Shown here piece after piece: positions 8,254 to 60,073 of a stretch of DNA of 64,000 nt. The translations under genes were made by a program, and so were the position numbers. The notes beneath the pieces were generated by a model. It had not been told where the DNA came from and searched no databases. It saw nothing but the letters and a program-made list of their open reading frames with translations. The DNA is taken from assembly GCF_947488135.1 (NCBI RefSeq), contig NZ_CANKYW010000001.1, forward strand, positions 1-64,000. The letters run 5' to 3'. This DNA is from an uncultured Marivita sp. GTDB lineage: Bacteria > Pseudomonadota > Alphaproteobacteria > Rhodobacterales > Rhodobacteraceae. Within the stretch, counting starts at the first letter, position 1. Each line of letters starts with the position of its first letter.

Positions 8254-8520
8254 ATGATGTCGAACTACGGAAAATCAAGCCAGCCCACTGCCTCGGTGCT
8301 CGCAATAGTGGTCGCGCTGATATTCGGAACGCCGGCGACGGGGCAGGATGCGGTGCCAGTTTCCCCGAACCTGACGCCGAATTTGCGCGATCTGTTGCGC
8401 CAGGAAATGCTGTCGATCGAGCGGACGAGCTAGGACATCCTCTCTGCGCTGATAGCCGGAGGTGAGGCGCGCGTTGCCGAGCTTGCACAAAAGATCCGGG
8501 GATCGGCGAGAAATATGTAG
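8254..8520 (+). pseudogene. Small exported protein interrupted by in-frame TAG
   Basis: The frame begins at ATG 8254 (or 8257) with a signal-peptide-like segment (VLAIVVALIFGTPATGQ), runs to IERTS and then meets TAG at 8431-8433. After the stop the same frame continues protein-like as DILSALIAGGEARVAELAQ until TAG at 8518. The 'LLRQEML.I....ILSAL..G....VAELAQKI' pattern resembles small periplasmic helical proteins found near cytochrome or metal genes, but I cannot name the family. The in-frame stop, plus a divergent end (GSARNM), suggests a decayed gene. Confidence 0.45.
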
Positions 8521-8733
8521 CACGCATCCGTGCGGACAAGCGATCGAAGCGGACAGGTGCTCTTGGGAGAGAGACGTGGCCGCCTTCTCGGCTGGCGCAA
8601 TCGGGTCTTCGCTATCCTTCATCCGTGCAAGCTCAAGGTCGCCGAGAATGGCGTGAAACGCCAGCAGGACGGTGAGGACAAGGACGGTTGCGGAAAACAG
8701 GCCGAAAACGACAGAGATCACCAGCGGTTTCAA
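8275..8733 (-). other. Possible remnant of a small membrane protein
   Basis: Starting at TTG 8733, the minus frame gives a convincing membrane segment (VFGLFSATVLVLTVLLAFHA) followed by GDLELARMKDSEDPIAPAEK, then loses protein-like character from about 8560 and runs antisense through the pseudogene at 8254. The first 60 residues look like a real short membrane protein; the rest does not. The remainder of 8734-9099 holds no gene I can support, only a short GC-rich inverted repeat GCGGGCC/GGCCCGC at 8864-8885. Confidence 0.25.
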
Positions 8734-8788
8734 CGTTGATGCCCGGTCACGGGTTTCTTGACAGCAGTCATCCGGATAGCCTTTGCAG

Positions 8789-8806
8789 ATAGTGATTGAT
8801 TGCTTT
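8789..8806. promoter_or_regulatory. Degenerate copy of the 7551 palindrome
   Basis: ATAGTGATTGATTGCTTT matches the perfect palindrome at 7551-7568 at 13 of 18 positions. It lies about 55 bases upstream of the putative leftward membrane-protein remnant. It could be a second operator of the same TetR protein; the AT-rich character makes chance similarity possible. Confidence 0.2.
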
Positions 8807-9099
8807 CTATTATGCCGAGCCTTTTCCCGTGGCCAGTTTTCAAACTCCACCTCTTTTTAGCGCGCGGGCCACAAGGAAGGCCCGCAATTGCTCCGGCATC
8901 CACGGATGGCCAACGCGCAGGCGGCCCCTAACCCGCAGGTTGAGTTTAAAACTTCGCTGATCGCCAGTTGATCTTCGCGACCTCAAATAGCCCGAGATTC
9001 CGGGATTTTGTTCACTGGACAGCAGTGCTAAGAGCACATCCAAACCCGACAGAACCTATCGGAAATGGGTCTGTCTCTCGGGAAACATGTGACTGCTCT

Positions 9100-10779
9100 A
9101 TGGCCGATACAACACTTCATTCAGGAAAAAGAACCCGAAGCATCCGGGAGAGATTGCCGTGGGTGATCGCCGGTTTCATTGCCTTGATCTGTGTCCTTCC
9201 GCATATCAGCGTTCTGATCGCGGCGTTCATGGGGTCGACGGAGACGCTCCAGTCGCTCGCGGAGACAGTTCTTGGCCGCTACACCCGCGCGACGATTTTT
9301 TTGCTGGTCCTGGTGGTGTTCTTCAGCACTTTGATCGGAACTCTTGCTGCGTGGCTGGTCACGACCACCGAATTTTGGGGACGGCGCGTTCTTGAAATCA
9401 CGCTTGTCCTGCCTCTGGCCTTTCCGGCCTATGTATTGGCCTATGCCTACACCCATGTGTTGGATCACCCGGGCATCGTGCAAACGACGCTCAGGGCAGT
9501 GACCGGGTGGGGGCCACGGGACTATTGGTTTCCTGAAATCAGGTCTCTGGGAGGTGCGGCGGCAATGCTGACCTTCGTCCTATATCCTTATGTCTACCTT
9601 CTGGCACGGGCCGCGTTCGCATCGCAAAGCGCGACCACGTTCTATGCGGCACAGTCTTTGGGACAGACCCGCTTCGGCGCGTTCTGGCGGGTGTCACTTC
9701 CAATGGCACGTCCGGCGATCGCGTCGGGGGCGATGCTGGTGGCGATGGAAACCATCGCGGACTTCGGGACGGTTTCGTATTTCGGCGTTCAGACCTTCGC
9801 CGTCGGGATCTATTCCAGCTGGTTCACATTCGCGGATCGCGCCGCTGCGGCCCAACTGTCGCTGGGTCTTTTGACCTTCGCCTTGCTGCTGGCGGTTTTG
9901 GAACGCTTGAACCGTGGCGAGGCGCGCTACGCGTTCGGGCGAAAGTTCGAACACATGCCGCGAGTATTGTTGAGCGGAGTTAAGGGCAAACTGGCCTTCT
10001 TGGCCTGCTTTCTTCCGGCCTTCCTTGGATGTCTTCTCCCGGTCGTGATGCTGTCCGAGATGGCGCTCAGCTCTGAGCAGTCGCTGTTTAGTCAGCGCTA
10101 CCTGCATTTCGCGCGCAATTCGGTCGTTCTCGGCCTAAGCGCGGCGGTGATTACGGTTGCCGTCGCGCTTTTGTTTGGCAGCCTTGCGCGGAACCGCAAA
10201 TCCTGGCTGGCCACCACGATCCTCTATGTCGGCCGACTTGGCTATGCCGTACCGGGTGGCGTGATTGCGGTCGGTTTGCTGGTCCCGTTCGCCTATTTCG
10301 ACAACGCTCTGGATGCGTATATGCGCGAGACGTTCGACATTTCGACGGGACTTTTGTTCACCGGGTCGATCTGGCTGCTCGTCTGTGCCTACATGATCCG
10401 GTTTCTCGCAGCTGCGATCGGCGCATATGAAGGCGGTGTGGCGGTGATCAATCCGAACATGGATGCGGCAGCCCGGGTTCTGGGGCAAAACGAATGGGGC
10501 TTGTTGCGGCGCGTCCATTTCCCGCTGTTGCGGCCGAGCCTGTTTACCGCGTTGTTGATCGTATTCGTCGACGTGATGAAAGAGCTCCCCGCGACCCTGA
10601 TCATGCGGCCCTTCAATTTTGACACGCTCGCCGTTCAAGCGCATCGCCTCGCATCCGACGAGCGGCTGGCAGGGGCGGCCGTTCCGAGCCTCGTGATCGT
10701 GGCGATTGGTACGCTGCCGGTGATCCTGTTGTGCCGGCGGATCAGGAACGAGCAGGGCAAAAAAGAAGAGGGCGCCTAA
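9100..10779 (+). CDS. fbpB: Ferric iron ABC transporter permease (FbpB/SfuB type)
   Basis: A 559-aa inner-membrane protein made of two fused BPD-transport permease halves, about 12 membrane segments, as in FbpB/SfuB of periplasmic iron(III) transporters. Each half has an EAA-type loop: ATTFYAAQSLGQTRFGAFWR, and AARVLGQNEWGLLRRVHFPL near the C-terminus. The ATG at 9100 was chosen because it starts the hydrophilic lead to the first membrane helix (WVIAGFIALICVLPHISVLI); the longer frame upstream does not look coding. The binding protein converges from the other strand. No ATPase subunit is in the window. Confidence 0.9.
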   Translation: MADTTLHSGKRTRSIRERLPWVIAGFIALICVLPHISVLIAAFMGSTETLQSLAETVLGRYTRATIFLLVLVVFFSTLIGTLAAWLVTTTEFWGRRVLEITLVLPLAFPAYVLAYAYTHVLDHPGIVQTTLRAVTGWGPRDYWFPEIRSLGGAAAMLTFVLYPYVYLLARAAFASQSATTFYAAQSLGQTRFGAFWRVSLPMARPAIASGAMLVAMETIADFGTVSYFGVQTFAVGIYSSWFTFADRAAAAQLSLGLLTFALLLAVLERLNRGEARYAFGRKFEHMPRVLLSGVKGKLAFLACFLPAFLGCLLPVVMLSEMALSSEQSLFSQRYLHFARNSVVLGLSAAVITVAVALLFGSLARNRKSWLATTILYVGRLGYAVPGGVIAVGLLVPFAYFDNALDAYMRETFDISTGLLFTGSIWLLVCAYMIRFLAAAIGAYEGGVAVINPNMDAAARVLGQNEWGLLRRVHFPLLRPSLFTALLIVFVDVMKELPATLIMRPFNFDTLAVQAHRLASDERLAGAAVPSLVIVAIGTLPVILLCRRIRNEQGKKEEGA

Positions 10780-49913: not shown

Positions 49914-49927
49914 GTGCCCGGGGGCGG
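49914..49927. repeat. attL: Left attachment site (14-bp direct repeat)
   Basis: GTGCCCGGGGGCGG is identical to the 3' end of the tRNA-Phe gene at 60001-60014, in the same orientation. It bounds the left side of the island. The following 49928-50121 contains no gene, only the subterminal repeat at 50014 and AT-rich or G-rich tracts. Confidence 0.8.
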
Positions 49928-50013
49928 CATAAGGTGTTGTTTTCATTGTAATAAGTTACAGGGCGGGGGGACTTTTTTCTTTCACCATGTTTATTGGATT
50001 TTTTCGGATTTGT

Positions 50014-50026
50014 GTCCCACTTTTCC
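50014..50026. repeat. Subterminal repeat, left end of island
   Basis: GTCCCACTTTTCC occurs identically at 59918-59930 near the right end, in the same orientation. It is about 87 bases inside the left attachment site (the right copy is about 70 bases inside the right one). The arrangement suggests integrase arm-type binding sites. Confidence 0.55.
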
Positions 50027-50121
50027 GAGGGGGGATTAGAGGGCGGGAGCCAAGGTTCGGACACACCAAAGCAAGCGAATTGCTTTGCGACGTTCTATGA
50101 AATCGTTGAGGATGTTGTTGG

Positions 50122-51384
50122 CTATTTAGTTTCCCAAGGAAGCTTGGGAGCAGCGTCCGTCAAGACCGACAGAGCCGCACAAACGGCTGACATGCCGAGG
50201 TAGGGAGGCACTGCGTCTCCGATCCATTTCGCCAATGCCTTTCGAGGCGTCTCGCCATCTCCACCCATGAAGCCGTAGCCGTCTGGAAAGGATTGAATGC
50301 GAGCAGCCTCATGCGGCGTAACCAGGCGACGTCTGGTCGGATGGATGAACCTGCCTTGACCAGGTGTGCCTATGCCGGTCGTGATCGGTGGCGCGGGTCG
50401 GTCAGGGTGCATTCGACCATAGACCGAAGTGTAAGTCGTTCCATCTTTGTGGCAGTCGGGCCGTTCGCTGTTCGGTAGGTCGTAGATACCCTCGTCAAAG
50501 AGGAAGTCTATCCGCCGAATGTTCTCAGGCCCCTGGACAGGCGACGTATCGAAAACGGAATTGCCCTCGCTGTCCTCGAGGTCGGCGATCGCCCAAAGGA
50601 CGTCGCGTGGCTCCCGTTTCCCGAAACATGTTCCAGAAGCCTCAGTCGCCAAATGGCTCAGAGTTTCCTGCAAGACGCCTTGCTCGGCATCTTTGACCGC
50701 GATCATGAAATATCGCGCGCGGGTCTGCCAACCGCCGAGGTCGTCCATCCTCAGCACTCGGTCGGCCACAGCATAGCCCTCGGAAGCCAGCAGCCGGCGC
50801 GCGAGTTCGACGACGTCGCTATGGGAACGAACCACGCCGGGAACATTCTCGATAACGACCGCCTTCGCCCCTAGGGCGACCGCGATCGCCGCCGTCGCGA
50901 CGAATAGATCGTTCCTGGGATCATTTCGACGCGTATGATTGTTCAGGTTCGAATGCCCTTGGCATGGCGGACCCGCGATAAGCAGATCCGTCTTACCCAC
51001 CTCCATGGCGAGGTCATGCTGAATGATTTCGGGAGGATAGTCGAACGCTGCGGTATCTCCCATTTGATCCACCGAATAGTCCACGATTGTCGCCAAAGAG
51101 TCGGCGATCTTCTTTCTTACCGGCAAGGACCGACCGTAGACCTCCATCGCGGAAACATCCGCATCGGCGATCGCATGGAAAACCGCACGACGATCGAAGC
51201 AATCGGCTGCAAGAGCCGTCCCCAATCCGAAACCGCCAGAGCCGCAGAACAAATCAACAACCGACAATGGCTTCTTGGTGGGATCATCCCAAAGATGATG
51301 TCCCTTCAAGAATCCCCGCCACCATTCCGAATGCTCTTTGTCGGCTTCGGAAGAGTGGCAATCTGTTGCCACTTCTACGTTCAT
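50122..51384 (-). CDS. DNA (cytosine-5) methyltransferase
   Basis: A 420-aa C5 methylase. Motif I VVDLFCGSGGFGLG, catalytic motif IV AGPPCQGHSN (C141), motif VI VIENVPGV, motif VIII QTRARYFMI, motif IX/target side TPHEAARIQSFPDGY and motif X KWIGDAVPPYLG are all present, so it should be active. Target specificity cannot be read from sequence. It is the last gene of a leftward four-gene set with two unrecognised proteins and a GHKL ATPase, and a Vsr-type nuclease is encoded divergently. Gap to the next gene upstream is 27 bases. Confidence 0.93.
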   Translation of the reverse strand: MNVEVATDCHSSEADKEHSEWWRGFLKGHHLWDDPTKKPLSVVDLFCGSGGFGLGTALAADCFDRRAVFHAIADADVSAMEVYGRSLPVRKKIADSLATIVDYSVDQMGDTAAFDYPPEIIQHDLAMEVGKTDLLIAGPPCQGHSNLNNHTRRNDPRNDLFVATAAIAVALGAKAVVIENVPGVVRSHSDVVELARRLLASEGYAVADRVLRMDDLGGWQTRARYFMIAVKDAEQGVLQETLSHLATEASGTCFGKREPRDVLWAIADLEDSEGNSVFDTSPVQGPENIRRIDFLFDEGIYDLPNSERPDCHKDGTTYTSVYGRMHPDRPAPPITTGIGTPGQGRFIHPTRRRLVTPHEAARIQSFPDGYGFMGGDGETPRKALAKWIGDAVPPYLGMSAVCAALSVLTDAAPKLPWETK

Positions 51385-51411
51385 TCAACCACTTTCGTGA
51401 CGACAGGCCGG

Positions 51412-52215
51412 TCAGCCTTTGACCCAAGCCCGAGCACTGGACGTTCGCGTCCAGACGCGCTCGATGAACGCTTTGCTCTGGTTCCTGTCAAGTAACTCAA
51501 CGGACACATTGGCACAAGCCTTGGCCAAGTCTTTTGCAAGCTGACGTATCTCGGGAATGGTCAGCCTGGGCTTGTCCCGATCCGGTCCGGGAAACTGGAA
51601 ATCGACGAAAGCTTGAAGAAACGGGCGGTGTTGTGCGTAAAGCACCCGCAAAAGATGGCTTCGCCAGAACTCGACAGATCCACCCCTAGCATATTCGTAA
51701 ACCTTCGAAGCATCATCAGCCCCATCAACCAATCTTCCCATTGCGGCTCTGATCCAAAGCCTGAAGAAGAGCACTTCTTTCGCATGCTGACCTACGAAGT
51801 TGTTGCGGCCTGGCAGGTAATTCGGTTTTTTCGGCTCATCGTCCTCCAATTCAAGATCAACCTGGGTCTTTTCCTTGAATGGGTATCGACTTTCGACCAA
51901 TGTCCGACCCGGCACAGTCGCGAACCAATACCAGAATTCCGGATCACGCAATGCCTCATGATCCGGGAGCGCCTTATGCAGCAGAACGGCACCCTTCGAT
52001 TCAAAGGCTTTTTCACCCTCTTTCTCCAAAAGAGCAGACAGGCTGTCGACGATCGCCGGAATCTCCATTTCCCAATCGAATTCGTCTCCAATTGGTTGCT
52101 TTTCGACCTTGGGAGATTCAGGTGGAGAAACCCTGGACGATGCTTCCACACAGGCATCTTGCCACTTCTTGAACCAGCCCTTGGCGGAATCCTCGCTTAC
52201 GAACGGATAAGGCAT
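51412..52215 (-). CDS. Unrecognised protein of the methylase/ATPase cluster (267 aa)
   Basis: A mostly helical, charged protein. An acidic N-terminal region (GDEFDWEMEIPAIVDSLSAL) is followed by EALRDPEFWYWFATVPGR and NNFVGQHAKEVLFFRLWIRA, ending LDRNQSKAFIERVWTRTSSA. The aromatic-rich 'FW.W' and 'RLW' segments recall DUF6339-type proteins that occur beside Dcm methylases, but I cannot confirm membership. No nuclease motif is evident. ATG 52215 shares one base with the stop of the upstream gene, so translation is coupled. Confidence 0.8.
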   Translation of the reverse strand: MPYPFVSEDSAKGWFKKWQDACVEASSRVSPPESPKVEKQPIGDEFDWEMEIPAIVDSLSALLEKEGEKAFESKGAVLLHKALPDHEALRDPEFWYWFATVPGRTLVESRYPFKEKTQVDLELEDDEPKKPNYLPGRNNFVGQHAKEVLFFRLWIRAAMGRLVDGADDASKVYEYARGGSVEFWRSHLLRVLYAQHRPFLQAFVDFQFPGPDRDKPRLTIPEIRQLAKDLAKACANVSVELLDRNQSKAFIERVWTRTSSARAWVKG

Positions 52216-53129
52216 CAAACTTTCTCCAAATCTTTGACCAGGCCGCGACTGTCATGGACTGCAGCTCGCAATCGCACCGGGTCTTTGATGAGGTTCTTCA
52301 GTTCAGAAAGCGACATTGGGTGATCCGCCCGCAGGTTTTCCAGGATCGCCTCTAGTGGGCTCCCTCCAGTAACCTCTTCAGCTTCGCTGACACCGTTTCC
52401 GTCCGCCAACAGAATTGCAGATGCGATCTCTGACCATATCAGTGCGGCGACGGCGGCCGCCGACTTCCCAGCCGCGGAACTCAACAGAACTTTTTCCGAA
52501 ACATACGCCGTCGCGCACGAAGTTCCCTCGTCATATACGGTGTTCAGGTCTTCAATATCATCGACATACACAAAAGTGCCTTTCGGCAAATGCAAGCTCT
52601 TGGCCAACTCCTCAGTGAGGGGGAGGATGCGGAAAGCCGACTGCCTACGATCCAGGCCGATCGTATAGACCTCCTTTGCCACCCAGCTTCCCAAATGGTT
52701 TGGCCATCCCGGGCCGAGATCGACTTCCTTCGAAAGACAGATTGAAACGCCAAGTTCGAAAAGGCCCGTTAACTTGGCATCCTTGAGCATGTGTTGAGGA
52801 ACCTCGATACATTCCGGTGCCTCTTCGCCAAGCGAAAACCTTTCCACAAGCTCACGGCGCAGCATCTGCGGGGTCCTAAGAGTGACGACCAGATCGAAGG
52901 CGGACCGTCGCCCTCCGAATACGGCATTGATCCGCTCTTCCGATAGCTTCGGGTACAAGCGCGGAGCCATGTCCGCCATTTGGCTATCATCGACGATCAG
53001 TCGGTTTCCCTGTACTGGTGCATCCCCGAACTTCAGGAATAGCTCCATTTCGTCGAGCAAACCTTCGGCCGCTTGCGCCCCGAAATAGGGGCGGAGCGTC
53101 TTTGGTTGTGATCTGACCCACGCGTTCAT
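52215..53129 (-). CDS. Unrecognised protein of the methylase/ATPase cluster (304 aa)
   Basis: Starts MNAWVRSQPKTLRPYFGAQA; ATG 53129 overlaps the ATPase stop (ATGA). Mixed alpha/beta; contains LIVDDSQMADMAPRLYPKLS, SAFDLVVTLRTPQMLRRELV, a serine/alanine-rich helix (AGKSAAAVAALIWSEIASAI) and a C-terminal basic helix region (LIKDPVRLRAAVHDSRGLVK). I see no catalytic motif and do not recognise the family. Strict coupling with both neighbours implies it acts with the ATPase, perhaps as an adaptor or specificity subunit. Confidence 0.8.
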   Translation of the reverse strand: MNAWVRSQPKTLRPYFGAQAAEGLLDEMELFLKFGDAPVQGNRLIVDDSQMADMAPRLYPKLSEERINAVFGGRRSAFDLVVTLRTPQMLRRELVERFSLGEEAPECIEVPQHMLKDAKLTGLFELGVSICLSKEVDLGPGWPNHLGSWVAKEVYTIGLDRRQSAFRILPLTEELAKSLHLPKGTFVYVDDIEDLNTVYDEGTSCATAYVSEKVLLSSAAGKSAAAVAALIWSEIASAILLADGNGVSEAEEVTGGSPLEAILENLRADHPMSLSELKNLIKDPVRLRAAVHDSRGLVKDLEKV

Positions 53130-54823
53130 GCCTTGCCCTCCACACCGAGCGGTTTGACCCGAGGCACGAAATCCACGGTCCAATCCGGTTCGTAAACCGC
53201 GCTTTCCACCTCCACATCGACCTTCTCGCCAGGCGATAACCTCAGACGCCACTCCGCTTCATCGACCTTTTCGACGTCGGCACCATTGAACGACGCCGTC
53301 AATGCAATCGGATCGAGGTGACGGTGGCCTTCGTCAATCGAACTCAGCCGCATCGTCACGATCACCGGCAAATCACCCTCGTGGTCTTCCTTGAGTTGGA
53401 TCGTGACTTGGCCTTTAACCTTCAGGCCATCCGCAGCTTGTTCGATCAGGACATCGGGCCTTAGCGAAACCGGGGTCTCACCCTTTCCCCCGCCGATCGG
53501 CTCCCGTTTGCCGGTTGGGCCAAACAGCTTCGCAAGCTCACGCTCCAGTTGGAGAAAACGATTGCCATCGGATTTCTCCGGCGGACGCGCAAATTTTTGG
53601 AAAGTTCGCAACTCTCGCCAAATGCGCGCATGGACTGACTGGACGATTTCGCTTTCTTTACTCGAAGGATCCAATCTGTCGGCATTCGAATCCCACTGGT
53701 CATGTTCCGGTGGCTCTGATCGACGCAGAATATCGTCGATATCGTCGTCTGCAAGAAACACACCGACAACAGGCGGATGACTTGGGAACCCACGCCGGTA
53801 GTATTGAACGACCATACCGGGCGAACGCACCAAAGCGATTGTGTCGCGCCGATCGACCTGGTCGGACATCTCATCCACTTCTTGATCATCTGCCAATGCA
53901 AAAAGCCCGAGTTGACCGATTTTCTTTCCATCCAATTTGTTGAAGTCAGCCTTTCGTCGGGACTTTCCGCTCTGCTCGGGCGACCGCCCCAAAGCGACAT
54001 CAAGTGCATCGATGAATGGCCTCAACTCAGGATCTAGAAGAGGTCGCAAGTGCAGCCGCTGTCCGTCTTCATCGGTGATATTTACGCGGAAGTTTTCGCG
54101 TCGGATTTTCGGCCACCAGGAGCGTTCGACGCCTCGTTTGATGTCCCCCATCTTGAGCGGACAATCCACGATGGCGATCGTCGTGCCGATGTCGCCTTCT
54201 TCACGCGACATGTTGAGTTCCGCCGCCAACTCGTCGGCTTCGTCTCCAACGAAGGGATCGTGTCGGATAGGAATGCCATGTTCCTCGATCCGCCTCCCGA
54301 AAAACGCGCGGCCGCTCGTAGTCTGTCCATCGAATTCGTGCTCTCGGTGATAGGCACACCCCATCAGAACTGAGAGTGGTTGCCCACTTGCATCATGTGT
54401 CCGAGAGTAAGCAAAGATCACAGCAACCCGGGATGATGCACTGTAGACCGCCTTGCCGAAGCCATAGGACCCACCGGAGTTTTTGTCTTCGGCGACTTTT
54501 TGACTGCCCCCGATTTCCATGAGCAGTTTGCGCATCTTCGAACTCGGAGATGTCGGATCCCCTGCCAATCCGGTTGTCCCGGAATCGACCACATGCAAAA
54601 CGCGAAGCGTTTCAGGTTTCGTCTCAAAAGCGTTGCCTGAGTGTAAGCCGAGCACTCCGACCCTTGCGGCAAATGCATCCAAGCCAGCGCCATGCCAGAA
54701 ACGATCCAGATCGGCACCCGAATAAGCGTGCATCCGCAACGCAACTTGCGGTGTTTCACCTTCTCGCGCCGCATCGACGCTGTTTTGCAGCGCCTCGCGC
54801 GCCAGGCGTTCGGCGGCGTCCAA
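53126..54823 (-). CDS. GHKL-type ATPase (MutL/MORC-like) of a defence cluster
   Basis: 565 residues from the TTG at 54823. N box EALQNSVDAAR, G1 motif HVVDSGTTGLAGDP, G2-like GGSYGFGKAVYSASSRVAVI, then the transducer-like region with TTIAIVDCPLKMGDIKRGVE. A linker is followed by a predicted all-beta C-terminal domain (GQVTIQLKEDHEGDLPVIVT to AEWRLRLSPGEKVDVEVES). Upstream of 54823 the frame stays open to 54892 and encodes GEVFKSIFNGSGLDAAERLA, which looks like the natural N-terminus, but no ATG or GTG is there. Such ATPases occur with Dcm and Vsr proteins in predicted restriction-like systems. Confidence 0.85.
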   Translation of the reverse strand: MDAAERLAREALQNSVDAAREGETPQVALRMHAYSGADLDRFWHGAGLDAFAARVGVLGLHSGNAFETKPETLRVLHVVDSGTTGLAGDPTSPSSKMRKLLMEIGGSQKVAEDKNSGGSYGFGKAVYSASSRVAVIFAYSRTHDASGQPLSVLMGCAYHREHEFDGQTTSGRAFFGRRIEEHGIPIRHDPFVGDEADELAAELNMSREEGDIGTTIAIVDCPLKMGDIKRGVERSWWPKIRRENFRVNITDEDGQRLHLRPLLDPELRPFIDALDVALGRSPEQSGKSRRKADFNKLDGKKIGQLGLFALADDQEVDEMSDQVDRRDTIALVRSPGMVVQYYRRGFPSHPPVVGVFLADDDIDDILRRSEPPEHDQWDSNADRLDPSSKESEIVQSVHARIWRELRTFQKFARPPEKSDGNRFLQLERELAKLFGPTGKREPIGGGKGETPVSLRPDVLIEQAADGLKVKGQVTIQLKEDHEGDLPVIVTMRLSSIDEGHRHLDPIALTASFNGADVEKVDEAEWRLRLSPGEKVDVEVESAVYEPDWTVDFVPRVKPLGVEGKA

Positions 54824-54934
54824 TCCACTGCCGTTGAAAATCGACTTGAAGACTTCTCCGCCAACTTCGCTTTGTGAAACCTCAGCAAGCAGTTAAGTCT
54901 TGGCTAAGAAGAATAATCGGAGGATCGAACAGAA

Positions 54935-55171
54935 ATGGCCGTTGTTAAAGAGATCGAAAAAGACGACACAAAGGAATATCCAGTCAGCAGAACAACATCT
55001 CGCTGCACTTACACTGTGGTGCACTTGGGCGAAGAGGCGTTCCTAGACCTGCGCACCTACGGTTCGGACACCCGATTGGTTGAAGGACATGCGAGCCAAG
55101 TCATGCAGTTCGATCGAAACGCGGCACGAACTCTCTATCGTGCTCTCCGAGAGACCTTCGATTTCGACTAG
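54935..55171 (+). CDS. Unrecognised small protein divergent from the ATPase (78 aa)
   Basis: Starts MAVVKEIEKDDTKEYPVSRT; ATG 54935 follows GGAGG at 11 bases. Predicted beta-rich centre (CTYTVVHLGEEAFLDLRTYG) and a C-terminal helix (RNAARTLYRALRETFDFD). It lies only 42 bases from the open end of the divergent ATPase frame and 39 bases before the Vsr gene, so it probably forms an operon with vsr. No family recognised. It may be a small regulatory or adaptor protein. Confidence 0.75.
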   Translation: MAVVKEIEKDDTKEYPVSRTTSRCTYTVVHLGEEAFLDLRTYGSDTRLVEGHASQVMQFDRNAARTLYRALRETFDFD

Positions 55172-55210
55172 CACTCCGACACCGTCACCGGCGAAGTAAG
55201 ATCGAAGATA

Positions 55211-55627
55211 ATGGCACGGGTCCGTAGTAAGGACTCGAAGGCGGAAGTGACGCTTCGCAAGGCGCTCCACGCACGGGGCTTTCGGTACCTTGTGAACCGA
55301 CGCGGACTTCCGGGAACGCCGGATCTCGTATTCCCGCGCCGCGGGGCGGTCTTGTTCGTTCATGGCTGTTTTTGGCATCGACACGACGGGTGCCGACGGG
55401 CGACGACACCAGCAACCAACGAGGCCTTCTGGACCGAGAAGTTCGAGCGGAACATCGAGCGCGACGCTCGCAAGATCGCAGAATTGGAGGCCGTGGGTTG
55501 GCGCGTCGGCGTCGTGTGGAAATGCGAGATCTTACGACAACCCCTCGGCCCCTTGCTGGACCGCGTCGCGGCATTCTTGACTGACCCTGAAGGCATACTG
55601 GAACCCATTGACCGGGATAGGCACTAA
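55211..55627 (+). CDS. vsr: Vsr-type DNA mismatch endonuclease
   Basis: A 138-aa nuclease of the very-short-patch repair fold. MARVRSKDSKAEVTLRKALH at the N-terminus, the catalytic Asp in LPGTPDLVFPRRGAVLF, and FVHGCFWHRHDGCRRATTP are all conserved, followed by FWTEKFERNIERDARK. Classical Vsr nicks T:G mismatches made by deaminated 5-methylcytosine. In clusters with a GHKL ATPase, Vsr-fold proteins are predicted to act as the restricting nuclease instead. Active-site residues are intact. Confidence 0.93.
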   Translation: MARVRSKDSKAEVTLRKALHARGFRYLVNRRGLPGTPDLVFPRRGAVLFVHGCFWHRHDGCRRATTPATNEAFWTEKFERNIERDARKIAELEAVGWRVGVVWKCEILRQPLGPLLDRVAAFLTDPEGILEPIDRDRH

Positions 55628-56018
55628 TGATTCATCCTGGCGAGCGATCAAGATCGAAGCTTGGTAGAACATCGCAACTTGGGCTGTTCAATCGTGCCTC
55701 CGACGGGAATTTGGCGCAGTCCGGATTCTGGCGATCGAAAAGGGCGAGATAAAAGCGCCTGCCACGAACGCCGCAAGTCACTGACGTGACTGGCGTTTTC
55801 GCGTGCATGCAAATCGGTGGTGTGCAGGTTTCGCGGATTTCTCCAATGATATCAAGCTGCCAGCATGCACAGTGGCGACTGGAACGAAGCCCCGCGTCGA
55901 TGAGTCAGTGAAAGCTTGCCTTAAACGATGTCGCGGTCAGTGACACATGAGCGTCCAGCGGAGGACGCAGTTCGAAGGCACGCGGGTGGCGTGAAAAATC
56001 CCACAGCCGAAGCAAGCA
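55628..56018. other. Gene-free stretch between vsr and the DUF3883 fragment
   Basis: 391 bases with no supportable coding frame. It contains the hairpin at 55767-55797 and two short CG-rich repeats. The composition changes across it, with the sequence after about 56.0 kb more GC-rich than the methylase cluster, which suggests a junction between separately acquired modules. Confidence 0.4.
55767..55797 (+). terminator. Hairpin downstream of vsr
   Basis: AACGCC-gca-AGTCAC-tgac-GTGACT-GGCGTT followed by TT. A 12-bp stem with a 3-base bulge, 140 bases past the vsr stop. Likely the terminator of the small-protein/vsr operon. Confidence 0.5.
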
Positions 56019-56498
56019 TCATTCCGAACGCCTGGCATCCGCCACGGCGAGTTCGTTCCTCGTGATGTGGAATGGCGTCCTCTCCCATCCATTCGTTGTC
56101 TTGACCTCGATCAGTCGGGCATGACCTTCCGGTGTGAAGCTTTCGATGTCGTAGCCTGCCCCGTCGCCATCCTCTTCGGAAACCCAGCGGACCTTGCGAG
56201 CCAGATCATCACGACCGGCATCGCGCAGCGTGGCTCGTTCGTGCTCGATGGCGCGTTCCTCGCCCGCCTTCCCCAAGGCGCGGTTCCGTTCATCACGGCC
56301 CGCAACATCGAACTTTCGTGCGACTGCCAGCATCTGTTCCAACTCGTCCGGAGGCGGCTGGTTCGAAAGCGTCGGCGGCGGCCCGACGAAGAGTCTGCCC
56401 GCTTCCTGCATCTCTCGCGCCGCTCCTGCCCTCGGAATCCGCATGGTCCAACCAGGATTGAGGGCAAGCCAGCGCGCGACAGCGTCTACCAATGACAT
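56019..56498 (-). pseudogene. Truncated DUF3883 (PD-(D/E)xK-like) protein
   Basis: A 159-codon frame. Residues about 110-155 match DUF3883: GAGYDIESFTPEGHARLIEV and KTTNGWERTPFHITRNELAV, including the D...ExK catalytic pattern of restriction-endonuclease folds. Full-length proteins continue for about 50 residues after NELAVADAR; here the frame stops at RRSE. The N-terminal part is also shorter than in typical members. It is probably the remains of a larger defence-associated nuclease or helicase-linked protein cut by the junction near 56.0 kb. Confidence 0.65.
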
Positions 56499-56670
56499 CG
56501 CCTATATCGGGGTCTCGCCCACGCTCTTCGATCACCCGGTTCGCGACCGGCGCATGCCGCCGCCCAAGCGGATAAATGCCCGCACGGTCTGGGACCGGAA
56601 AAAACTTGACCGGGCGTTCGAGCTGATCCCTGATGGGGATCACTCCGACCACAATCCCTGGGACGACTGA
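56443..56670 (+). CDS. Integrase-associated small DNA-binding protein (excisionase-like)
   Basis: 75 residues from ATG 56443; the recognisable part is IAYIGVSPTLFDHPVRDRRM then PPPKRINARTVWDRKKLDRA and a C-terminal HNPWDD. The AlpA/excisionase-like winged-helix pattern is found directly before tyrosine integrases in many rhodobacterial islands. The usual first helix (ending in a Y/F-x-GVSP segment) is replaced by an unrelated sequence running antisense to the DUF3883 fragment, so the N-terminus may be truncated. It ends 25 bases before the integrase. Confidence 0.6.
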   Translation: MVQPGLRASQRATASTNDIAYIGVSPTLFDHPVRDRRMPPPKRINARTVWDRKKLDRAFELIPDGDHSDHNPWDD

Positions 56671-56695
56671 CGGCTGACGAAAGGCGGCGCGTGCC

Positions 56696-57808
56696 ATGCC
56701 CACATTCAGGATGAGAGACGGTTCGGGCAGCATCCGCCTTAAACACGTCATCGAGGATACCGACCGGCACGGGAACGTGCGCATCTACTTGCGGCGGCCC
56801 GGGCACCTGAAGGTGCGGCTGCGGAGCCAGCCGGGTACTGAGGACTTCCTCGCCGAATACCGCGCTGCGATGATGGGCGCGACGCCGCGCGCGCCCACCG
56901 GACCGCTCGAGCGGCGCGGGTCGAAGGGCAGCTTCAAGTGGCTCTGTGAGCAGTATTTCGTTTCCGCCGAATACCAGCGCCTGAGCGGGCGCACCAAGTA
57001 TGTCCGCCGCGGCATCCTCGACCGGATCTGCGAGAATAACGGATTGAAGCCCTATGCCCTGATGGAGCCGCGTCACGTCCGGCGCATGCGGGACGAGATG
57101 GCCGACCGGCCCGAGGCCGCCAACGGCTTCGTCAAGGCGCTTAGGCAGGTCTATGCCTTCGCGGTCGAATACGAGCTGGCGCAGCGAAACCCGGCCCGCG
57201 ATGTGCCCTACCTCAAGGCCAAGGGGGACGGCTTTCACTCCTGGACGATGGAGGAGGTCCGGCAGTTCGAGGACCATCACCCGATCGGCAGCAAGCCGCG
57301 GCTGGCGCTGGCGCTCATGCTCTATACCGGGCAGCGGCGGTCGGACATCGTCCGGCTCGGGCCGCAGCACATCAAGGACGGCTGGATCACCCTGACCCAG
57401 GCCAAGAACCGTGACCGCAAGCCCGTCACCCTATCCATCCCGGTCCTGCCCGAGTTGAAGGCGGTGCTCGACGCGACGCCCACCGGCAACCTCGCCTTCC
57501 TCGTCACGGCCTTCGGCAAGCCCTTCACCTCGAACGGCTTCGGCAACTGGTTCCGCAAGCAATGCGACACGGCCGGGCTGAAGCACTGCTCTGCCCACGG
57601 TCTGCGCAAGGCCGGCGCGGCGCTGGCAGCCGAGAACGGGGCGACCGAGCGGCAGTTGATGGCGATCTTTGGCTGGACGACCATGAAGGAAGCCTCGCGC
57701 TACACCCGCGCCGCGCGCCAGAAGGTGCTGGCGGCGTCCGGGATGAAGCTGTTGTCGCGGGATGGGGGCGCGCCGGGAAGGGGGGAAGCGCGGGGTGGCG
57801 AAACGTGA
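56696..57808 (+). CDS. int: Tyrosine site-specific integrase
   Basis: A 370-aa phage-type integrase with all catalytic residues: R214 in LYTGQRRSDIVRL, H301 and R304 in CSAHGLRKAGAAL, the His/Trp position in IFGWTTMKEAS and the nucleophile Y336 in SRYTRAARQK. The N-terminal part is the arm-binding and core-binding region (FKWLCEQYFVSAEYQRLSGR). It is expected to have inserted the island at the 3' end of tRNA-Phe. Confidence 0.93.
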   Translation: MPTFRMRDGSGSIRLKHVIEDTDRHGNVRIYLRRPGHLKVRLRSQPGTEDFLAEYRAAMMGATPRAPTGPLERRGSKGSFKWLCEQYFVSAEYQRLSGRTKYVRRGILDRICENNGLKPYALMEPRHVRRMRDEMADRPEAANGFVKALRQVYAFAVEYELAQRNPARDVPYLKAKGDGFHSWTMEEVRQFEDHHPIGSKPRLALALMLYTGQRRSDIVRLGPQHIKDGWITLTQAKNRDRKPVTLSIPVLPELKAVLDATPTGNLAFLVTAFGKPFTSNGFGNWFRKQCDTAGLKHCSAHGLRKAGAALAAENGATERQLMAIFGWTTMKEASRYTRAARQKVLAASGMKLLSRDGGAPGRGEARGGET

Positions 57809-57865
57809 TACACCGCATTCCTCGCCAAGTCTGAAATGACCAAGAAGAACACAATGGAGGCAGTC

Positions 57866-58030
57866 ATGACAGAGACCGAGAAACTGAAGCTGGATGAAGG
57901 CGAAACCTCGACGCTCCCTCCCGAGGCGTTCGCCGAGTTCCAGCGAGCGACGGATGCCCCAGGGGCGCGGATAACCGGCCTCGCTCGAGCGGCGGAAAAG
58001 GCACAGCGGCTGCTCAAAGGTGCAGACTGA
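57866..58030 (+). CDS. Small hypothetical protein after the integrase (54 aa)
   Basis: ATG 57866 has GGAGG 6 bases upstream; a longer frame from 57836 lacks this. Starts MTETEKLKLDEGETSTLPPE and ends LARAAEKAQRLLKGAD. It has some resemblance to the C-terminal neutralising part of short antitoxins, too weak to name. It lies between the integrase and the HigB-like gene, on the same strand. Confidence 0.55.
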   Translation: MTETEKLKLDEGETSTLPPEAFAEFQRATDAPGARITGLARAAEKAQRLLKGAD

Positions 58031-58102
58031 TCCTCGCCCCGCAGCCCGTTCTTGCAAAATTAGTTCTTCAAGGCTATATAGCTTCAAGGTAGTATTTGCC
58101 CG

Positions 58103-58459
58103 ATGCCGCGGACCGTATCCTTTGTCGAGGAATTTGAGCCGGAATTCGATGCCCTGCCACAAGAGGTGCAGGACGCGATCCTCGCCCGGGCGCTTTTGCT
58201 CGAGCGGGAAGGCCCCATGCTCGGGCGGCCCCATGCGGACACCCTGACCGGGTCGAAGCATGCCAACATGAAGGAGCTGCGCTGCAATGCCGCCGATGGC
58301 GTCTGGCGCATCGCCTTCGCATTCGACCCCGATCGGCAGGCGATCCTGCTCGTCGGCGGGGACAAGTCGGGTGGCAGCGAGAAGCGGTTCTACAAGTCGC
58401 TGATCGCTCGGGCGGACGACCGCTTCGACCGCCACCTGAAGAGACGGAAAGGACAATGA
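58103..58459 (+). CDS. higB: HigB-type toxin (RelE/Gp49 family)
   Basis: A 118-aa RelE-superfamily mRNA interferase of the phage Gp49-like group: EFEPEFDALPQEVQDAILAR, MKELRCNAADGVWRIAFAFD and AILLVGGDKSGGSEKRFYKS. Toxin first, antitoxin second, with ATGA overlap, is the HigBA order. The toxin should cleave ribosome-bound mRNA when the antitoxin is lost. Confidence 0.9.
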   Translation: MPRTVSFVEEFEPEFDALPQEVQDAILARALLLEREGPMLGRPHADTLTGSKHANMKELRCNAADGVWRIAFAFDPDRQAILLVGGDKSGGSEKRFYKSLIARADDRFDRHLKRRKGQ

Positions 58460-58827
58460 CGATGGCCCGGAGCCTGAAGGAGAAGCTGGCGACCCTGGAC
58501 CCTGCCCGTCGCGCGGCGATCGAGGCCGAGGCCGATCGGCTGCATGCCGAGTACCTGACGCTACAGGAATTGCGGAAAGCCAAGAAGCTGACCCAGGTGC
58601 AACTGGCCGAAACCCTCGGCGTCCAGCAGGCCACCGTCGCGAAATACGAACGCCAGAGCGACCTCCTGCTTTCGACGCTGACGAGCTACGTCCGCGCGAT
58701 GGGCGGGGAACTCAAGCTGATGGTCGAGTTTCCCGGTAAGGCTCCGGTCGCTCTCGAAGGGTTGGGAGAGACGGAGGAACCGCGGCGAGCTCGAGGCGGC
58801 AAAGCGCAACGAGCCGTTCAGCTATAG
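58456..58827 (+). CDS. higA: HigA-type antitoxin (XRE family)
   Basis: A 123-aa protein with a helix-turn-helix of the XRE type (AKKLTQVQLAETLGVQQATV followed by AKYERQSDLLLSTLTSYVRA) and a C-terminal MGGELKLMVEF strand typical of HigA. ATG at 58456 overlaps the toxin stop; 58462 is an alternative start. It would neutralise HigB and repress the pair. The pair probably stabilises the island. Confidence 0.9.
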   Translation: MTMARSLKEKLATLDPARRAAIEAEADRLHAEYLTLQELRKAKKLTQVQLAETLGVQQATVAKYERQSDLLLSTLTSYVRAMGGELKLMVEFPGKAPVALEGLGETEEPRRARGGKAQRAVQL

Positions 58828-58859
58828 GAAAATGAGGCAGTGTCGAACCCATCCGCTGT

Positions 58860-59765
58860 CTAGAGGAGACCACGGAGCTCCAAGGCGTCCCTGCCTACCA
58901 CAGTAATCATGGTATCAACATGGTGGGGCCGCATCCGGAAAGCTTCGTCTATCACTTCGGTCGCTGGGATCAATTCCGCCAGATCAGCCTTGATCAGATC
59001 ACGAGAAACACCTCGCTCGATTATGCCCTCGACCTCGATCGGAAGCTCAAAATCATCAGGCCATTCGCTGGGATCCGGTTCGTATTTGAATCGGCGAGGA
59101 ATGACACCGCCGCCCGTCAAATCCAACCCATGTGCAACAGCACTTGCCATCAATGCGAAGCACATTCTTGGAGTGGGCTTTCTGGGGCTCGGATGCGGCG
59201 TCGTTGGCACAAGCGCCTTGAACTGTGAAAGAGGTTTGATGCACGTACTGTCCACCGCGCCGAAGCTGCGCAGGTATCGATTCAAGACCGCCTTATCTGG
59301 GTTTCCAGACGGTTCGCCCGATAGTGTCGCCGCGTGCCGCTCCCGAGAAAGCGGGCTCTGACTGGAAGGGTTGCCAACACCGCCGGCGAGGTTTGTGAGG
59401 ATTCCACCCTCATGGAGTCGACCGAGCAACTTGATCAACTCACCTTCTCGTTCCAGGCACAAACCTTCATCGTCGGTAGAATACTCTCGATCTATGCGGT
59501 AGCGAACCCAGCCACCATTCCTCAGAATTTTCCTTATGACATTGCATTTGAGAGGGTTGCCCTCGAGTTCGCGCGTGCCACGCCTCGCTTCGAGTTCATG
59601 TTCAAGTACTCGCCTCCCCTTACCCTTCCCGACGTAGAACGGAGCCCCATCGGGTCTGCACAGCAGGTATGTGTAGAAGTCGAGCCGCTCCGGACACGCG
59701 AGAAATTTCGTCACTGCCTCACGGGAGCCTTCAAAGGTCGGCGGGTTCTCAAACTGGTAGGACAT
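58860..59765 (-). CDS. GIY-YIG nuclease-domain protein
   Basis: A 301-aa protein. The N-terminal domain (residues about 25-110) carries FYTYLLCRPDGAPFYVGKGK, which places the GIY-YIG motif as YTY...YVG, followed by the conserved Arg in GKGRRVLEHE and a Glu later in RDDEGLCLEREGELIKLLGR-type context (seen as LEREGELIKLL). The C-terminal part is helical and unrecognised, ending in VDTMITVVGRDALELRGLL. Such proteins are found as stand-alone or homing-like nucleases in islands. ATG 59765 was chosen because it starts the conserved domain lead; 59810 is the longest start. Confidence 0.8.
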   Translation of the reverse strand: MSYQFENPPTFEGSREAVTKFLACPERLDFYTYLLCRPDGAPFYVGKGKGRRVLEHELEARRGTRELEGNPLKCNVIRKILRNGGWVRYRIDREYSTDDEGLCLEREGELIKLLGRLHEGGILTNLAGGVGNPSSQSPLSRERHAATLSGEPSGNPDKAVLNRYLRSFGAVDSTCIKPLSQFKALVPTTPHPSPRKPTPRMCFALMASAVAHGLDLTGGGVIPRRFKYEPDPSEWPDDFELPIEVEGIIERGVSRDLIKADLAELIPATEVIDEAFRMRPHHVDTMITVVGRDALELRGLL

Positions 59766-59917
59766 GCGCGAGGCATATCGAGCGAAATCGGCCGAACTAT
59801 GGCAGAGCACTGATGCAGCATTCTAGCTGGATGAAGCGACCAAGTGCCTGAGCCACTTCCAATTATGGCCAGCAACCTCTCGACCCGTACGAACGCGAAC
59901 AACTCGCGAACAAAAAA

Positions 59918-59951
59918 GTCCCACTTTTCCCAAGCGCGAAAACGGTGGGAC
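59918..59951. repeat. Subterminal repeat with inverted half, right end of island
   Basis: GTCCCACTTTTCC (59918-59930) is the second copy of the left-end repeat at 50014. Here its first 7 bases are repeated inverted as GTGGGAC at 59945-59951, giving a 34-bp inverted structure. It lies about 50-80 bases inside the right attachment site. The rest of 59766-59998 holds no supportable gene. Confidence 0.55.
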
Positions 59952-59998
59952 GATTTTGCACCATAACCCATTGATATCATTCACGCTAGGAGGAGTGT

Positions 59999-60073
59999 TG
60001 GTGCCCGGGGGCGGAATCGAACCACCGACACGAGGATTTTCAATCCACTGCTCTACCCCTGAGCTACCCGGGC
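59999..60073 (-). tRNA. tRNA-Phe (anticodon GAA)
   Basis: A 75-nt cloverleaf with encoded CCA: 7-bp acceptor stem GCCCGGG/CCCGGGC, D loop AGGGGTA, anticodon stem-loop TGGATTGAAAATCC and T arm with GGTTCGATTCC. The anticodon GAA reads phenylalanine codons. Its 3' end points into the island, the usual target side of tyrosine integrases. Confidence 0.97.
60001..60014. repeat. attR: Right attachment site within tRNA-Phe
   Basis: GTGCCCGGGGGCGG, identical to 49914-49927, covers the acceptor stem and the first bases of the T arm. The copy here is part of the intact tRNA gene, so the tRNA function was preserved on integration. Confidence 0.8.

Follow-up and report, generated by a model that had tools for sequence, protein, structure and literature searches.

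A GHKL ATPase cassette with Dcm and Vsr genes, related to predicted paraMORC2 and PDC-M33 cassettes, in a tRNA-Phe island of an uncultured Marivita sp.

The window analyzed here, 64,000 nucleotides of a contig of an uncultured Marivita sp., contains a six-gene locus for a C5-cytosine DNA methylase (Dcm), two partner proteins, a GHKL ATPase, a 78-aa protein and a Vsr endonuclease (Table 1). Its core, consisting of the paraMORC2-type GHKL ATPase, a protein of about 300 aa and a DUF6339 protein, is found again in many groups of bacteria and archaea and had already been predicted, as a PADLOC candidate and as a class in a 2008 paper. The gene set resembles a candidate bacterial defence directed at foreign DNA. 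From its genes, the window copy looks like a compact, helicase-less, slightly damaged variant of this predicted cassette. An even chance is given here to the reading of the locus as a compact relative of the paraMORC2/PDC-M33 restriction-like cassettes that lacks a helicase and acts by methylation-guided GHKL clamp restriction. An earlier sequence-only reading of the locus as a new defence subtype is partly supported: the compact helicase-less variant agrees with a distinct subtype, whereas the core had been predicted before (PDC-M33, paraMORC2 class).

The ORF list of the window confirmed the six ORFs with their coordinates and strands, as well as the short overlaps (1-4 bases) and the single 27-base gap described between the leftward genes. 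One correction concerns the GHKL ORF, which has no ordinary start codon. Ka/Ks was below 1 in every comparison where Ks was estimable, so the ORF set is not a chance arrangement.

Table 1. Features of the cassette and its island in the window.
Feature	Coordinates	Strand	Basis or remark
att-like 14-nt copy of tRNA-Phe 3' end	49914-49927		other copy 60001-60014
Dcm, C5-cytosine DNA methylase, 420 aa	50122-51384	-	PF00145 E 1.3e-32
Divergent DUF6339 protein, 267 aa	51412-52215	-	profile comparison
304-aa partner	52215-53129	-	distantly related to the gene that separates GHKL from DUF6339 in other loci
paraMORC2-type GHKL ATPase, 565 aa from TTG	53126-54823	-	PDC-M33A E 1.2e-21
Segment without counterpart in close relative L013	54863-55176		blastn breakpoints
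78-aa protein	54935-55171	+	not a conserved cassette member
Vsr nicking endonuclease, 138 aa	55211-55627	+	PF03852 E 2e-22; TIGR00632 E 1.5e-36
NOV_C protein	56019-56498	-	PADLOC candidate PDC-S36 E 3.1e-64
Tyrosine integrase	56696-57808	+	PF00589 E 4.7e-17
tRNA-Phe	59999-60073	-	island insertion site

Protein families of the cassette

The ATPase, called MutL/MORC-like from the letters, matches PADLOC model PDC-M33A and has intact ATP-site motifs (N14, D17, DxGxxG at 80-85 and GGSYGxGK at 117-124), which are conserved in 94-100% of 82 aligned rows (ORFs of at least 480 aa from the window and relative loci, numbered L, with L010 and L011 left out). E370 and H374 of the ExxxH motif are present in 82/82 rows, with a predicted placement in the S5 domain; the passages on this class in Iyer, Abhiman and Aravind 2008 (PMC2292703) take an ExxxH motif towards the end of S5 as the defining feature of paraMORC2. 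The S5 motif of MORC proper, GhXhhpXXRhl, is absent from the window GHKL and, without its last letter, matches 1/82 rows (L078, residue 823). A PDB sequence search with the GHKL alignment gave nothing useful. Against L012-L015 (the L012 contig is perhaps misassigned), the window GHKL and Dcm genes have Ka/Ks of 0.04-0.13, Dcm itself 0.08-0.13.

The C5 methylase and Vsr calls were borne out by Pfam. Dcm has motifs I, IV, VI, VIII and X in order in a scan with patterns that we take to be those of C5 methylases. Its best PADLOC model is DruM2 (E 1.1e-80); membership in Druantia was considered and dropped, as these enzymes form one large methylase family. Residues 3-108 of the putatively active Vsr align to a solved Vsr (1cw0, E 9.7e-26), and D38, H56 and D85, presumably the catalytic positions, are conserved in 95-98% of 42 rows. 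Of the elements of a Type II restriction-modification system, a methylase is present and Vsr is the sole nuclease in the cassette, with a candidate role in restriction.

Scanned singly, the 267-, 304- and 78-aa proteins had nothing significant in Pfam, NCBIfam, PHROGs and PADLOC; the family relations of the first two come from profiles only. DUF6339 (PF19866) is matched singly by 30/37 members of the 267-aa alignment (37 rows, from a search that matched 82 sources including the duplicates L010/L011), the window member falling below the model. The DUF6339 profile of the window clade matched the other members with a probability of 99.3 (E 2e-20), against 0.1-0.3 for four unrelated profile pairings used as control. 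In a first hhalign run with small alignments, the 267-aa protein had reached a probability of 86 and the 304-aa protein gave no signal (0.4); the relation of the latter emerged solely with larger alignments. Its profile (the window plus 23/27 loci, without the near-duplicates L012 and L015, L027 at a contig edge and the broken L030) matched the larger of two distant groups with a probability of 94 (E 1e-7 to 2e-7) and, weakly, the PDC-M33B-type group, whose L006 and L008 members match model B (probability 23-24, E 8e-4 to 9e-4). Of these two proteins, proposed earlier as possible new adaptors, the 267-aa one is a divergent DUF6339 protein.

Structure prediction with AlphaFold2 gave a mixed strand/helix model for the 304-aa protein (pLDDT 85, pTM 0.53) and a nearly all-helical one for the DUF6339 protein (pLDDT 90, pTM 0.86). 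Remote relations were thus obtained by profile but no significant structural match: Foldseek against the PDB returned nothing at E <=0.001 for either model and no solved relative of DUF6339 (best E 3.3e-3 at low TM-score for the 304-aa model, 0.99 for DUF6339), and PDB sequence searches with both alignments gave nothing useful. By alignment conservation, neither partner has a nuclease-like conserved set and near-invariant residues are few; a nuclease of a new fold may still lie within one of them.

Compared in blocks of 30 residues, GHKL and Dcm of the window and of the Rubricella locus L014 mostly share >90% identity, with a minimum of 73%, whereas identity falls to 40-75% in one stretch that begins near residue 151 of the 304-aa protein and ends near residue 180 of the DUF6339 protein. 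This exchanged block (window 51674-52625) runs from the middle of the 304-aa gene through the greater part of the DUF6339 gene. Dcm residues 241-270, the most variable part between other pairs and perhaps the target-recognition part, are 93% identical here, so the exchange, seen in one pair of loci, may have to do with how the two proteins work together or with escape from a phage inhibitor, and not with the methylated site.

Relatives and the state of the window copy

The scan with GHKL patterns gave 79 relative loci (the best 80 of 87 relatives), which therefore sample GHKL-bearing loci only. A Dcm, Vsr, helicase or small gene was counted wherever it stood in a locus, and 56/79 loci were well-flanked, with more than 4,000 bases of sequence on the left side of GHKL and more than 5,500 beyond its end. 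Among these best 80 of 87 relatives, DUF6339 follows GHKL in 74/74 loci with enough sequence, an ORF of at least 250 aa lies between the two in 70/74, and the cassette occurs in Proteobacteria, Actinobacteria, Chloroflexota, Firmicutes, Bacteroidetes, haloarchaea and others. In the same set, Dcm is present in 54/56 well-flanked loci and Vsr in 29/56, being absent in 27/56; Vsr is also found in 15/19 loci with a 304-aa protein of the window type. Its position varies (upstream, downstream or divergent), and helicases are optional, with helicase and restriction genes beside some relatives. Co-conservation therefore holds for the GHKL/~300-aa/DUF6339 core and mostly for Dcm, but not for Vsr or the rare 78-aa gene.

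The cassette is patchy, with 3/292 genomes of the order including the window's own. An independent search of 398 genomes for DUF6339 gave 3 genes, 3/3 beside a gene of the PDC-M33B-type group; the GHKL profile matched 0/3 of these loci, which are too short to show GHKL. No 304-aa relative was found in the plasmid search or in the phage search, which had one distant GHKL. A scan of 10 ORFs flanking five Vsr-less loci gave a single clear nuclease, a restriction enzyme of the MvaI/BcnI type in L014, and a weak GmrSD_N match. The former, L014:5882-7093, lies upstream of the Vsr-less Rubricella cassette, together with a second Dcm.

The 78-aa family was seen in the window, L. arenae (L015, the same genome as L010), L030 and Nonomuraea, and 2/337 genomes of the class, counting that of the window, carry it. 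The close relative L013 has in the same interval a gene for a protein of about 75 aa (L013:7605-7862) and the GHKL start. The suggestion that the 78-aa protein is an adaptor was dropped; the gene seems to be a replacement and not a component of the cassette. A PDB search with its alignment gave nothing useful. In Nonomuraea gerenzanensis, a relative (L091:7977-8237) is closely followed downstream by a GmrSD restriction gene (8492-10264).

The ~75-aa gene is conserved in L016 (3855-4079) of Rhodovulum tesquicola, whose GHKL is full-length, in 26 other genome loci and the plasmid loci L006 and L008, upstream of GHKL and usually directly so, and was not found in the window. Its product has invariant F, R, N and Y positions in 18 aligned members and no Pfam match in the two members scanned. 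In L012-L014, GHKL starts with GTG and is longer by 30 codons at this end than the ORF from the window's TTG. Unrelated sequence has taken the place of the start and about 17 of these codons in the window; the remaining 13 stay in frame but contain no ATG, GTG or TTG, as also in L. arenae. No ribosome-binding site is evident before the window TTG. Without a clear start, this copy may be impaired.

That the copy is a decaying remnant without present function, which is compatible with any reading for intact relatives, is a tentative possibility on the improbable side. It agrees with the lost GHKL start, the absent ~75-aa gene and the neighbouring PDC-S36 gene, truncated too, and also with the further decayed copy of Paracoccus sanguinis (L011/L019), where the GHKL N-terminus is missing and the Dcm frame broken. 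Purifying selection argues against it: compared with L. arenae, which has the same start loss, Ka/Ks is 0.05 for GHKL, 0.09 for Dcm, 0.11 for DUF6339, 0.12 for the 304-aa gene and 0.32 for Vsr. However, Ks in this comparison runs from 0.06 (Vsr) to 1.37 (78-aa gene), which makes the locus a recombination mosaic and the Ka/Ks argument against decay not final, since recombination could have refreshed GHKL after the start loss.

Mode of action and known systems

In the clamp restriction reading, Dcm would mark host DNA as self with 5-methylcytosine, and GHKL would be a MutL/MORC-type dimer clamp, driven by ATP, that loads on DNA with unmarked sites, with the 304-aa and DUF6339 proteins as its putative recognition or assembly subunits. 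The clamp would recruit or stimulate a nuclease, and Vsr, where present, would be the candidate nicking enzyme, by analogy with the stimulation of Vsr by MutL in other bacteria. This binding and stimulation, stronger with ATP in the account of PMC6116569, is the nearest biochemical precedent. The analysis shows gene content and order, family relations, purifying selection and signs of mobility; methylation sensing, complex formation, Vsr as effector and phage defence are inferences. The absence of Vsr from nearly half of the well-flanked loci is the weak point of a Vsr effector, and together with its variable position fits an accessory repair role better than that of a core effector.

Eukaryotic MORC proteins trap DNA. 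Restriction could likewise proceed without a nuclease of the system's own, the GHKL clamp and its partners trapping, looping or compacting unmethylated DNA and blocking replication or expression while Vsr would only repair T:G mismatches that arise by 5-methylcytosine deamination. This is doubtful, given that other parts of the genome could encode a nuclease or one of the partners could have nuclease activity with a new fold, and that Vsr-less L014 has its restriction gene beside the cassette; it is nevertheless consistent with the constant pairing of GHKL and DUF6339 in the testable loci of the best 80 of 87 relatives, where Vsr and helicases are optional, with the lack of a nuclease signature in both partners, and with Vsr being described in PMC6116569 as the repair enzyme for Dcm-type methylases. 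A reading of the core as a methylation-sensing, nuclease-free restriction machine that stops unmethylated DNA by ATP-driven trapping or compaction is unlikely; it would make the core the counterpart in bacteria of the MORC silencing of eukaryotes, and Vsr and helicases optional extras.

Dcm, Vsr and a MutL-like ATPase are also the make-up of very short patch repair as outlined in PMC6116569, which would allow a methylation-linked repair module with GHKL as the MutL for Vsr, instead of defence. This is quite improbable in view of the patchy distribution, the island location, the helicase and restriction genes beside relatives and the well-flanked loci without Vsr (27/56, best 80 of 87 relatives); unlike that repair system, the window set includes two additional conserved proteins and sits together in a single mobile island.

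Among known systems, the closest to the cassette as read here, a clamp restriction system, are PADLOC PDC-M33 (PADLOC-DB 2.0.0, 2023) and the paraMORC2 operons. The window GHKL matches PDC-M33 model A, and relatives of the other two proteins, whose genes are arranged in the same order, match B and C; however, judged by models A-C and not by PADLOC's calling rule, model B is matched by 0/24 window-type 304-aa proteins, and the window 267-aa protein lacks a match to C, which up to 24/37 of its alignment have. Mapping onto this named system thus succeeded for the ATPase and failed for its two window partners. The association of GHKL ATPases with Dcm and Vsr in predicted restriction-like systems is found in the operon descriptions of PMC2292703, where paraMORCs are placed with methylases, Vsr and helicases in RM-like operons, the paraMORC2 ones having an ExxxH GHKL ATPase near methylase and Vsr genes.

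Further systems were compared. VcSduA (Shedu, paraMORC3 type) is a GHKL ATPase with phage protection shown, but is described in PMC12137116 as one protein with its own PD-(D/E)xK nuclease domain and no methylase or partners. CglI and NgoAVII differ as three-gene systems with a PLD-type nuclease subunit in the description of PMC4267653. LlaJI, as presented in PMC1459862, likewise has C5 methylases and a two-part restriction complex with one NTPase part, but these are a McrB-like GTPase and a PD-D/EXK subunit, not GHKL and Vsr. The HEF_HK/Response_reg_2 genes near C5 methylases and Vsr, with paraMORC-like ATPases beside C5 methylases in the account of PMC8011034, differ in that both domains are absent from the window proteins (Pfam scan).

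In a literature search of PubMed Central scope, no test of a paraMORC2 plus DUF6339 system appeared among the matches listed; within that search, DUF6339 and PDC-M33 occurred in no paper and paraMORC2 in the 2008 paper only. A paraMORC3-type GHKL has been tested against phage, as PMC12137116 reports for VcSduA. The helicase-less branch, with five or six genes, is small enough to ask which protein, if any, cuts DNA, and the answer would bear on how MORC-like ATPases became tied to DNA methylation.

The island and its neighbouring genes

The claim of a tRNA-Phe island held, on the tRNA, the integrase, the 14-nt copy of the tRNA 3' end and the homology breakpoints. Homology ends exactly at 59999 in 10/11 loci from other genomes of the genus (one extends to 59891), and that with L013 starts at 49916 (blastn); with the att-like copy, these breakpoints set the island at about 49914-60014. 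In several genomes of the genus, the ~48-nt 3' part of tRNA-Phe (window 59999-60046) is present in additional copies, a sign of repeated island uptake at this site.

About the first 80 model positions are missing from the window PDC-S36 protein, while the L. arenae copy (L010:3756-4589) has 277 aa. The same island carries a Gp49-like/HTH gene pair at 58103-58827(+), probably a toxin-antitoxin module, which we take to be of the HigBA kind, and a gene for a 316-aa protein at 58860-59810(-) with a weak LEM-3-like GIY-YIG match (E 2e-4, under the curated cut-off).
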